Shown piece after piece: positions 42,020-45,146 of a stretch of DNA of 50,084 nt. Made by a program: the position numbers and the translations under genes. Within the stretch, counting starts at the first letter, position 1. Each line of letters starts with the position of its first letter. Under the pieces are notes generated by a model, which was given only the letters and a program-made list of their open reading frames with translations, was not told the DNA's origin and did not search any database. The stretch is from Gemmatimonadaceae bacterium (GTDB lineage Bacteria > Gemmatimonadota > Gemmatimonadetes > Gemmatimonadales > Gemmatimonadaceae). Location: positions 1-50,084 of the forward strand of contig JACCRF010000056.1 of NCBI GenBank assembly GCA_013813715.1, given 5' to 3'.

Positions 42020-43720
42020 TTACCTCATTCCGGGCTCGTAAACCACGCGTCCGCCGACGATTGTCATCCTGATCGTCGCCCCGGCGATGGTTTCGGGCGC
42101 CATCCGCGTCAGATCGCGATCGATGAGAACGAGATCGGCCAGCTTCCCGCGCTCGATCGAGCCCTTGATGTCGTCGTCGAACGAAGCGAAGGCGGCGTTG
42201 ATAGTGTAGCCGCGGAGCGCTTCCTCGACCGTGATCTTCTGCTCGGGAACCCATCCCGCAGGATTGCGGCCATCGAGGGTCCGTCGCGTTACCGCCGCGA
42301 ATATTCCCTCCAGCGGAGCCGGCGGCGCCACGAACCAGTCGCTGCCGAGCACCAGACGCGCTCCCGTGTCCAGGAGAGACCGAAAGGCGTACGTGTGCCT
42401 GGCCCTCTCGGGCCCGATGACTTTTTCCGCCCATCTCCCGTCATCGATGGCGTGATAGGGCTGCATGCTCGGGATGACTCCCAGCGCGCCGAAGCGGGGG
42501 ATGTCCGCGGCATCCGGATGCTGCGCATGCTCGATTCTGAACCGGCGATCTCGCGGGCCATTTTCTCGCGCAACCCTTTCGAAGATGTCGAGCTGTGTTC
42601 GTATCGCCCGGTCGCCTATCGCGTGCACCACCACCTGGAGGCCCACCTGATCGGCCTCCGATGTCCACCGATACAGATTATCGGCGGTCTCCACGAAAAA
42701 CCCGGAGTCGGCCGGCGTATCGGTGAAGGGAGCCAGCATCGCCGCGGTGTGCGAGCCGAGCGAGCCGTCGACGAATCCTTTGAGACCCCCGATCCTGATC
42801 CACTCATCGCCCCGGCCCCGGTTCGCGACGGTGTCGCGCAACCTCTCCCACTGCGCGATCGGCGTGACTGCATATATGCGCGCGATGAGGCGGCCGTCCT
42901 TCTGGGCGCGCTCGAAAGTCGCCAGATCGCCGAACGAGCCCATGTTGTGCACCGAAGTCACGCCCCGCGCGGCAACGTATTTCATCGCAGCATCGAGTGC
43001 TCTGTCGTTCATCGCTGGCGACGGCGGTGGCTCGACCGCGTTGACGTAGCTCTGCGCGTTGTCCTTGAGCACCCCTGTTGGCTCACCGCCGGCATCGCGC
43101 ACAATGGTGCCGCCCTCCACATCCTTCGTAGAGCGGGTCACCTTCGCCGCCGCGAGCGCCTGTGAGTTCGCGAGAGCCATGTGGCCGTCGAGCCGGGATA
43201 CCCAGACCGGATTGTTCGGCGTCACCGAATCGATCCAGTCGCGCCGCGGAAGCTCCCCGCCCCACTGCTGGTGATCCCAGTCCCCGCCGGTGATCCACGT
43301 GCCTGCGGGAACAGTCGCGGCGTATGCCTTGATTCGCGCGACAAACTCCGCCGGCGTCTTCGCCTCACGGAGCTGCACCGATGCCAGCCGAAATCCTCCG
43401 TCTATGAAATGCACGTGCGAATCGATGAATCCCGGCGTGACCATTCCGCCGGCGGCATCGATAATTCTCACGGCAGGGCGATTCTTCACCAGCTTCGAGA
43501 TCTCCGCGCTCGAACCGACGAGTGCGATGCGGTCGCCGCTCACCGCTACTGCGGTCGCCCACGGTTGCCGCGGGTTGCCGGTCCAGACTCGGGCGTTCAC
43601 GATGGCGAGCGTGACGTCATTTGCGGGAATCATCGCCGTGGCGCACCCCTGTAGAGAGAGGGCGGTGATGCACGCCGCCACGAGTCGAATGGAGAGGGAG
43701 ATCACGATAGAGCCCTTCAT
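42020..43720 (-). CDS. YtcJ-like amidohydrolase, lipoprotein
   Basis: 566 residues from ATG 43720. A signal with lipobox LQGC (Cys about 26) is followed by an amidohydrolase barrel. Motifs GMVTPGFIDSHVHFIDGG, GGDWDHQQWGG, KGFVDGSLGSHTAAML, VVHAIGDRAI and RIEHAQH give the metal and catalytic sites. The C-terminal small beta domain ends with TIVGGRVVYEPG. This branch includes enzymes hydrolysing N-substituted formamides and D-amino acid derivatives; the substrate is unknown. An extra 20 in-frame residues upstream come from the repeat at 43742 and are not part of it. Confidence 0.9.
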   Translation of the reverse strand: MKGSIVISLSIRLVAACITALSLQGCATAMIPANDVTLAIVNARVWTGNPRQPWATAVAVSGDRIALVGSSAEISKLVKNRPAVRIIDAAGGMVTPGFIDSHVHFIDGGFRLASVQLREAKTPAEFVARIKAYAATVPAGTWITGGDWDHQQWGGELPRRDWIDSVTPNNPVWVSRLDGHMALANSQALAAAKVTRSTKDVEGGTIVRDAGGEPTGVLKDNAQSYVNAVEPPPSPAMNDRALDAAMKYVAARGVTSVHNMGSFGDLATFERAQKDGRLIARIYAVTPIAQWERLRDTVANRGRGDEWIRIGGLKGFVDGSLGSHTAAMLAPFTDTPADSGFFVETADNLYRWTSEADQVGLQVVVHAIGDRAIRTQLDIFERVARENGPRDRRFRIEHAQHPDAADIPRFGALGVIPSMQPYHAIDDGRWAEKVIGPERARHTYAFRSLLDTGARLVLGSDWFVAPPAPLEGIFAAVTRRTLDGRNPAGWVPEQKITVEEALRGYTINAAFASFDDDIKGSIERGKLADLVLIDRDLTRMAPETIAGATIRMTIVGGRVVYEPGMR

Positions 43721-43741
43721 GCCGCCGCCACCTGAGTAACT

Positions 43742-43878
43742 ACAACCGCTGCCACAGAGACACGGAGGCACAGAGAACAAAAACTGATTTTAGGGAACTT
43801 CATCTTCATGGTCTTCACGCGTAGTTCCCCATTTTTTTGCCGTTCTCCGTGTCTCCGTGCCTCTGTGGCAGCGGTTGT
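43742..43878. repeat. 137-bp palindromic repeat element
   Basis: Outer arms of 37 bases (43742-43778 and 43842-43878) are inverted copies with a few mismatches, based on CCACAGAGACACGGAGGCAC. An inner pair GGGAACT (43793-43799) and AGTTCCC (43823-43829) pairs around a loop holding CTTCATCTTCATGGTCTTCA. The whole makes a long hairpin. The arm pattern, built of 7-base steps, is one I recall as common in environmental genomes. It has no ORF of its own, so it is a non-autonomous repetitive element or a MITE-like insert. It covers the 3' end of the neighbouring gene. Confidence 0.85.
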
Positions 43879-45146
43879 TGTTGTTTCCGGAAATACCGAA
43901 ACAGGAACGACGCGATTCCGACGTGCACGGGCAGCATGAGCGCGATGATACCGCCGTTGACCTGGTCGAGCCCGGGAGCCACCTGCATCACGAAGCCAGC
44001 CAATGAGATCAACGCGACCACACCGGCAAGGAGCGCCGCAATGTTTCCTGCCGCAATGGCTTCTGCATCCGCCGAACGCGAGCGGAGAGTCCAGATGAGA
44101 CGAATCAGTACGACTGCCAGCACCAGCGACAGCGGATTGGCCTGAAACAGATTCTCGTTGCGATAGCTGTAGATATGGTTGGTGAGAACCCAGAGTCCCG
44201 CCAGACCAGACCCCAATATCCCCACGACGACGCTCCACACGGTCGCAAGCGCGAGCGCCGGAATCAGCGACCGGCGCGAATGCCCCAGTGCCAGAAGAAT
44301 TCCTCCCAGCGCGAGAACCGAAGCCGCGATCGCCAGATAACCCCCGTTTCCGCGGGTGACGGTCAACGGCTCGCCGGGCCTCGTCGCCTGGAAAAGGACG
44401 CGCTCGTTCATCACCAGCGCCTGCGATCGCCCGGGGGTGCCTCCCGGCTCCACTTTCATTCCGCGAAGGTGGATCATCATCTGTACGGGCAGGAACATCT
44501 CCTCCCACGGCGACGTCTGACGATCGACCGGCTGCCCAAGCCCGAGCATCGTACCGGTGTAAATCGGCCAGTCGTCCTGTGTCAGTCGTGCAGTGTGAAA
44601 CCTGTACGAAGAGGGATTGGGGGGCGTCTCGCGGGCCGGGCCGCTGAAAGTGCGCCTGATCGATCCGCCAAGAGCATTGTCCAGAGCGTCGCGAATCCGC
44701 GTCGAACAGTTGTCGCGATAATAGTCGTACAAGTATTCCCGGTTCTCAGGCAGAAGATTCCACGCAACGAACCTCGCGAGGCGATGCTTCTCTGCAGCGG
44801 TCATCGCGAGCTCCTGCGCCCACACCGTCCGGTTCGTCCGCCGGTACTCTGCGATCGTGGCCGCGAGATCGAACGCGCCCATCGAGTAGAGCATCCGGCC
44901 CTTGAGGAAGTTCGGGATGAAATCCTCGTCGGCGAAGTCGAACAGCCCCCAGTGGTAGGCGATGTCAGTTCCCGCAACTGCATCGTGAATCCATATCGCG
45001 TTATGGCCGAACAGCTCCCACACCTGGCTGCCGGGACCCATCGTGACGAGGTACACGGTGAGTTCCGAGCCGGGCCCGGCAGCACCAGAAACGGCGACTG
45101 TCGTGGGTGCCTGTGTTTGCGCATCTGCCTGCGGTGGATTCACCAA
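43815..45146 (-). CDS. DUF4105 (Lnb N-terminal-like) membrane protein with repeat-encoded C-terminus
   Basis: About 443 residues. Residues 25-240 form DUF4105, with MGPGSQVWELFGHNAIWI, AYHWGLFDF, and the YDYYRDNCSTRIRDAL motif (Cys as in NlpC-like hydrolases). Six membrane segments follow (about 270-420). The last ~23 residues, from KQQQPLPQRHGDTE, are translated from the palindromic repeat, so the native end has been replaced. The start is unclear: TTG 45146 is the best available. A hydrophobic stretch continues upstream in frame but has no ATG, GTG or TTG start. Confidence 0.8.
   Translation of the reverse strand: MVNPPQADAQTQAPTTVAVSGAAGPGSELTVYLVTMGPGSQVWELFGHNAIWIHDAVAGTDIAYHWGLFDFADEDFIPNFLKGRMLYSMGAFDLAATIAEYRRTNRTVWAQELAMTAAEKHRLARFVAWNLLPENREYLYDYYRDNCSTRIRDALDNALGGSIRRTFSGPARETPPNPSSYRFHTARLTQDDWPIYTGTMLGLGQPVDRQTSPWEEMFLPVQMMIHLRGMKVEPGGTPGRSQALVMNERVLFQATRPGEPLTVTRGNGGYLAIAASVLALGGILLALGHSRRSLIPALALATVWSVVVGILGSGLAGLWVLTNHIYSYRNENLFQANPLSLVLAVVLIRLIWTLRSRSADAEAIAAGNIAALLAGVVALISLAGFVMQVAPGLDQVNGGIIALMLPVHVGIASFLFRYFRKQQQPLPQRHGDTENGKKMGNYA

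Follow-up and report, generated by a model that had tools for sequence, protein, structure and literature searches.

A dispersed CACnGAGn palindrome that ends an Lnb-type reading frame in a Gemmatimonadaceae bacterium has arms like those flanking genes for GxxExxY proteins, predicted nucleases

A long palindrome lies between two minus-strand genes in a 50,084-nucleotide stretch of a Gemmatimonadaceae genome (hereafter the window), and the reading frame of one of these genes runs into it. This raises the questions of where the palindrome came from, which enzyme might move it, and whether it has given a neighbouring protein a new end. An inverted-repeat search, an RNA fold and the family consensus placed the non-coding element as a whole at 43738–43882 (no strand assigned); as the consensus begins GTTGCC, the outermost bases of the window copy may be its own or flank. 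The left arm (43738–43778, + strand) carries the octamer core CACAGAGACACGGAGGCACAGAG at 43753–43775, and the right arm (43842–43882, − strand) carries it on the minus strand at 43845–43867. The arms are 41 nt each, 90% complementary and separated by 63 nt, and each holds about three CACnGAGn octamers; the 37-bp arms described in the initial annotation are part of these longer ones. That annotation had also placed an inner inverted pair within a long hairpin between the two genes, and here it was borne out: GGGAACT (43793–43799, +) and its partner (43823–43829, −; AGTTCCC on the plus strand) pair in the computed RNA fold, which has an energy of −78.2 kcal/mol against −37.6 for shuffled sequences (sd 3.4; z −11.9). 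Motifs similar to the inner pair are present in other copies (GGGGAACT). With the settings used, the element was by far the best of four inverted repeats in the whole window, the other three being 71–74% complementary, and the 23-nt arm core, allowing up to three mismatches, matched the window twice against 0.00 matches expected. An Rfam scan of the element returned nothing above gathering score; weak, sub-threshold matches to microRNA hairpins were taken as chance.

The arm is not unique in its own genome (G000; 3.73 Mb in 183 contigs), where a count of the core at up to three mismatches gave 11 plus-strand and 12 minus-strand matches, compared with 3 and 1 for the reversed control. Inward-facing pairs of 88–583 bp account for 17 of these 23 matches, and ten paired elements were analysed, partners with up to five mismatches being admitted in the pairing. 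The consensus of 26 arms, GTTGCCACAGAGaCACgGAGgCACaGAGAAc, has a variable base after each triplet. The family has the dispersed, multi-copy, intergenic palindromes that characterize REP/RAYT systems, and it also has the features of a MITE, being small and non-coding with inverted ends, many copies, and both filled and empty sites. The empty sites were found by comparison with relatives. Lnb homologues occur in 23 of 41 genomes (G000 included), and in five congeners (G003, G006, G013, G015 and G018) the amidohydrolase gene directly follows Lnb, with homology from 3–48 nt past the Lnb stop. This leaves no room for the element at the junction, so the window element is an insertion; in the remaining genomes with Lnb, the amidohydrolase was not seen adjoining it, or the contig ends. 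At a second copy (locus L002), ten congeners represent the empty site, their FAA hydrolase and SET genes being close neighbours, and at up to two mismatches none of the ten genomes matched the arm. Across the genus sample, arms were found only in G000 and G015 of 19 genomes. Two insertions, at the window locus and at L002, are thus seen against empty sites, as a mobile repeat of the kind first proposed would leave them, and we are highly confident that the window copy belongs to a mobile palindrome family and is an insertion. A conventional MITE, with the terminal repeats of a DDE-type insertion sequence as its arms, would also fit the size, the inverted ends, the number of copies and the empty sites. 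However, no target-site duplication was seen by eye at the ten elements of G000, whose ends are not base-exact, and the gene found inside one of them encodes a GxxExxY protein (see below), making this origin improbable.

What the insertion did to its neighbours differs between the two genes. The Lnb/DUF4105-type membrane protein frame (43815–45146, − strand; 443 aa from a putative TTG start) matches Lnb_N (E 1.4e-23) and, short of its Pfam cut-off, the Lnb transmembrane domain (E 4.4e-05). It continues into the element, which adds 22 residues and a stop codon, QQQPLPQRHGDTENGKKMGNYA; about 23 residues had been estimated. By translation and comparison with homologues, the element-encoded end occupies 43815–43883 (− strand), the 22 residues lying at 43818–43883 and the stop codon at 43815–43817. 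The G000 protein reads ..HVGIASFLFRYFRK before the element-derived residues; syntenic relatives have short, unlike tails beyond the common ..H(L/V)G segment, such as ..ARRGLSETPTVA and ..TARHDSTPDGA. The 22-residue tail was absent from the homologues compared, and no conservation speaking against a gain was found. As read from the DNA, the tail is new, and we infer that it is translated. Six-frame openness was mildly raised among the arms (18 of 26, compared with 1815 of 5000 random 28-mers) because one strand has few T. The amidohydrolase frame (Amidohydro_3, E 5.5e-108; 42020–43720, − strand) had likewise been noted to run into the other arm. It is open there, but only upstream of its likely ATG start at 43718–43720, 17 nt outside the element. 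Since homology in five congeners begins within the first 22 residues from this ATG, nothing shows arm-derived residues in the amidohydrolase. A 149-aa frame also adjoins the window element, antisense to the amidohydrolase.

The initial annotation had regarded the element as a way for mobile repeats to donate protein ends. Eight frames of at least 90 aa end in or at one of the ten paired G000 elements. Among the seven of these scanned against Pfam, only Lnb and the FAA hydrolase gave matches, and the FAA hydrolase frame stops at the outer edge of its element, not inside. Because Lnb alone has a Pfam match and ends within an element, protein-end donation rests on one good case in G000, with no further supporting case among the frames scanned. 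Other frames were rejected as element-ended proteins: eight of ten scanned had no Pfam match, and the rest were the FAA hydrolase and a SET-domain gene that lies beyond the element. Elsewhere in G000 (contig C132, L003:1313–1523), an element comes after a short frame ending RRKQGFSMLEMLVV, which we take to resemble a prepilin start, as though the element had severed a pilin-like gene; no remainder of this putative gene was identified.

The position and fold of the window element also bear on whether it is maintained for its hairpin in RNA. On this account Lnb and the amidohydrolase gene, both on the minus strand and abutting in five relatives, would be co-transcribed, and RNase III would cut the hairpin and uncouple them, in the manner of NEMIS or rRNA intervening sequences, whose hairpins are described as RNase III substrates in PMC2229807 and PMC4990558. 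The very stable fold fits such a role. Selection acting on each hairpin should nevertheless leave excess complementarity within elements, and among the paired elements of G000 we found no such covariation, arm likeness being 0.770 within elements and 0.766 between them; the Rfam result is a further point against it. We therefore consider an RNA function highly improbable as the reason for the element's presence, although it is compatible with the explanation based on GxxExxY nucleases that we favour.

Given its resemblance to REP sequences, the palindrome might be served by a RAYT (Y1 transposase), and a linked REP-type transposase had been suggested from the outset. Dispersal between genes agrees with this, as does the presence of a RAYT match in 6 of the 13 arm-rich genomes (77 of 296 overall), arm-rich meaning at least three arms above control; G194 was dropped from this set because its five matches, against four in the control, were microsatellite-like. 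The expected enzyme did not materialize, however. A PF01797 (RAYT) profile search gave no match in G000, nor in G043, which has 98 arms in seven contigs, and octamer arms were present at none of nine RAYT loci from the six arm-rich genomes. Neither GTAG nor CGTC is conserved as a tetranucleotide in the consensus of 26 arms; GTAG is present beside one arm of the window copy. A RAYT as mobilizer is accordingly disfavoured, to the point of being hardly credible. Seven of the RAYT loci (L271–L277) have inverted repeats of their own, which score 77–110 and are unlike the octamer arms.

A different candidate came from within the family itself. One paired G000 element (C33:21349–21931) encloses a GxxExxY gene (PF13366, 136.4 bits), and we therefore examined 80 GxxExxY loci in named genomes that span many phyla, scoring as octamers inward chains of two or more units within 300 bp. 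Octamer arms are associated with GxxExxY genes, and specifically so. Inward octamers were present on both sides of 45 of the 80 genes, including that of the archaeal locus Methanothrix L113, and at 0 of 790 same-locus shifted controls; for at least one side, the counts were 69 of 80 and 17 of 790. Outward octamers occurred on both sides at only four of the 80 loci. Thirty-five were not flanked on both sides, and 11 had octamers on neither. A motif-free inverted-repeat score of at least 40 was reached by 35 of 78 testable loci and by 1 of 790 shifted controls, as well as by 15 of 769 crossings of flanks from different GxxExxY loci, which have arms in common. Within the phylum sample, octamers flanked the gene on both sides at 16 of 31 loci, and at 4 of 11 more taken by place. 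This arrangement was confined to one protein type: genes of the VH..LGPGLLE type were flanked on both sides in 16 of 23 cases and on at least one in 21, compared with 0 of 7 flanked on both sides for the VYN type, and the single locus outside these types was without octamers. Inverted repeats of another kind are present at two VYN loci (L064 and L065), with scores of 46 and 50.

The arms are built in a periodic way. Where they scored at least 40, the best self-match lay at lag 8 or 9 for 25 of 35 named loci and for 8 of 14 in the phylum sample. Variable unit spacing makes this signal weaker (mean self-match 0.40, at lag 8) than that of the arms of PF05635 genes (0.65, at lag 7). Of the 80 named genes, 77 have a core free of stop codons with a stop after it. 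By a loose single-unit test, the ORF ends 0–27 nt before the downstream unit in 42 of 66 cases and beyond the unit in nine. Outside the octamers, the bases of gene-flanking and non-coding arms looked alike by eye in G000, G246 and G073, and less so in G043. The ends of the window palindrome are thus of one kind with those framing the genes of GxxExxY proteins, a little-studied family present in many bacterial groups, and this likeness suggests an unrecognised class of mobile repeat.

PF05635, the family of four-helix S23p proteins, was tried as an alternative owner of the octamer arms and rejected, with octamers on both sides of 0 of 34 genes and on one side of two; its arms mostly have 7-nt units. 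At PF05635 loci of the same phylum (L026, L027 and L198–L227), the inverted-repeat score reached 40 in 24 of 32 cases against 6 of 304 crossed controls, and the best lag was 7 or 14 in 20 of these 24. The 7-nt repeats may resemble cyanobacterial STRR repeats. The division between 7-nt and 8-nt arms has an exception at L031 (G030:C49:106659–108801), where 45 nt separate a CACAGAG arm from a PF05635 match and the genome gave no match to GxxExxY. Across 298 genomes of the phylum, GxxExxY was found in 96 and the arm pattern, at up to two mismatches, in 21. Ten of the 13 arm-rich genomes had a GxxExxY match, compared with 86 of 285 others (p 0.001, in a test that ignores relatedness). PF05635 was present in all 13 (158 of 296 overall), so co-occurrence alone cannot name the owner of the arms; the flank tests do. 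Among the 33 named genomes with arm-flanked genes, a generic octamer pattern matched in 24, and 15 had at least five matches and over twice the control, the gene's own arms being counted in both figures. In G322, G334, G340 and G341 the control nearly equalled the pattern, probably because long octamer runs match the reversed pattern too.

The protein itself is a plausible partner for such arms. GxxExxY proteins (TIGR04256/PF13366) are predicted PD-(D/E)XK nucleases. All 29 sequences analysed match TIGR04256, and G18, G20, E23, Y26, D63, K75, Q87 and Y91 are among their invariant residues, with E73 nearly so. An AlphaFold2 model of the G015 protein (pLDDT 94.8) had Cas4 SSO0001 (E 4.9e-4) and lambda exonuclease (8.9e-4) as its best Foldseek matches, and VIA-align gave Z scores of 9.5 for 4ic1, 7.1 for the Holliday resolvase Hjc and about 6 for XisH, values under 8 possibly meaning only a common arrangement. 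The predicted fold and the motif pattern, ExK plus QxxxY, are like those of Cas4 and lambda exonuclease (4ic1, 6m9k), from which the GxxExxY protein differs as a 117-residue domain of about 14–20% identity. A sequence search for a solved relative found none, and PADLOC returned only weak Cas4-like and RT-associated matches, for two of three GxxExxY proteins. Family profile, motif residues and predicted fold all point to a PD-(D/E)XK nuclease. In G000, the arm-flanked gene is decayed, with frameshifts at both ends, and a second copy is truncated; both being broken, nothing suggests current activity in this genome.

We lean slightly towards an explanation in which the window element is a non-coding copy of a CACnGAGn palindrome family that is served by a GxxExxY nuclease, is mobilized much as REPs are by RAYTs, and has replaced the end of Lnb. 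The element would be a non-autonomous member of a mobile family of short palindromes ending in octamer arms. Gene-bearing members of this family have such arms around a GxxExxY gene, whose small product is a predicted PD-(D/E)XK nuclease resembling Cas4 and lambda exonuclease. We infer that this nuclease recognises the arms, probably when they are extruded into a hairpin or cruciform, and that it cuts there, whereupon the palindrome would be copied to new places, as RAYTs are thought to do for REPs. The window copy landed between the Lnb and amidohydrolase genes, where one of its arms is open in the Lnb frame; the native stop and short tail thereby gave way to 22 residues encoded by the element. 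Whether GxxExxY proteins have this mobilizing role is, in our judgement, evenly balanced. An association of gene and arms need not mean that the enzyme acts on them, and the equal likeness of arms within and between elements, the absence of a visible target-site duplication and the 35 named loci not flanked on both sides all speak against the role. They might instead be passengers or parasites that settle in, or are regulated by, octamer palindromes that owe their spread to something else, such as replication slippage, template switching or an enzyme acting in trans. Three of the 13 arm-rich genomes have no GxxExxY match, the G000 copies are broken, and a search of GxxExxY loci for a single mobile unit set in unrelated surroundings returned mainly syntenic pairs, the genes being frequently syntenic between relatives rather than moved, all of which suits a passenger; synteny, however, also fits a resident, RAYT-like helper. 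Against a passenger stand the closeness of the arms and their inward orientation, far more frequent than outward (45 versus 4 of 80) and absent from controls (0 of 790), the restriction of arms to one GxxExxY type in the phylum sample, and the stop-free core kept by 77 of 80 named genes. We regard the passenger account as unlikely, if a serious contender. Returning to nuclease-served palindromes, a wider proposal can be made tentatively, at somewhat below even confidence: GxxExxY proteins of the VH..LGPGLLE type may be dedicated mobilizing nucleases of an unrecognised palindrome class that spans many bacterial phyla and reaches at least one archaeon. Such a system would parallel REP/RAYT but rely on a Cas4-like PD-(D/E)XK enzyme, with CACnGAGn octamers serving as the recognition code. 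The dispersed elements of four-helix PF05635 genes, with their 7-nt arms, would then form a sister class, and rRNA intervening sequences would be its copies in 23S genes.

Several known systems resemble parts of this arrangement. REPs and REPINs with TnpAREP (RAYT), or 'REPtrons' (PMC8266576), likewise comprise dispersed small palindromes and a small nuclease gene bordered by them, the helper gene often being syntenic between relatives; the enzyme there is of the HuH/tyrosine kind rather than PD-(D/E)XK, and its hairpins are short and GTAG-tagged, in contrast with the long octamer arms here. In the review PMC2229807, in-frame gains from palindromic repeats are described for RPE, ERIC and cases in Yersinia and Neisseria, and the C-terminal gain of Lnb is a new case of this known kind. 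The RPE, ERIC, YPAL and NEMIS elements described there are similar in their size of about 100–200 bp, inverted ends, stable hairpin and a stretch of element sequence read in frame with a host gene, but differ in sequence and hosts, RPE having a Rickettsia host range, whereas our case has a C-terminal tail and a candidate helper gene. The 23S rRNA intervening sequences with S23p (PMC4990558) have a small ORF between stem-forming inverted ends with short tandem repeats beside it, as in Coxiella, where heptameric repeats adjoin the S23p ORF. That ORF encodes a four-helix protein beside 7-nt repeats within rRNA; the comparison here is with a nuclease and 8-nt repeats, and with a window copy that is non-coding and lies between two protein genes. 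GxxExxY proteins are mentioned in passing, without tested function, in the passages of PMC8934634 and PMC12085832 that name them. Open-access PubMed Central literature yielded neither a link between GxxExxY/PDDEXK_3 nucleases and inverted-repeat palindromes nor CACAGAG-type arm strings; the nuclease–octamer link thus looks new, with earlier mention possible outside the open-access literature searched.

The directional and specific tie to repeat arms gives the GxxExxY family a testable substrate and CACAGAG-type repeats a likely owner. If the proposed role is true, it would add a second kind of enzyme for REP-like genome palindromes, and the window copy offers another instance of a neighbouring protein gaining a new end from such a repeat. 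Two individual loci are also worth recording. The MAG contigs of L112 and L153, labelled Roseateles and Methylotenera, share long syntenic stretches of 79–88% identity around the GxxExxY gene, which may reflect a binning or naming error, or transfer. At L040 (G015:C58:176979–180329), the GxxExxY gene is flanked on each side by a seemingly complete palindrome, the two in inverted orientation (score 163), an arrangement that recalls RAYT genes with their REPs.
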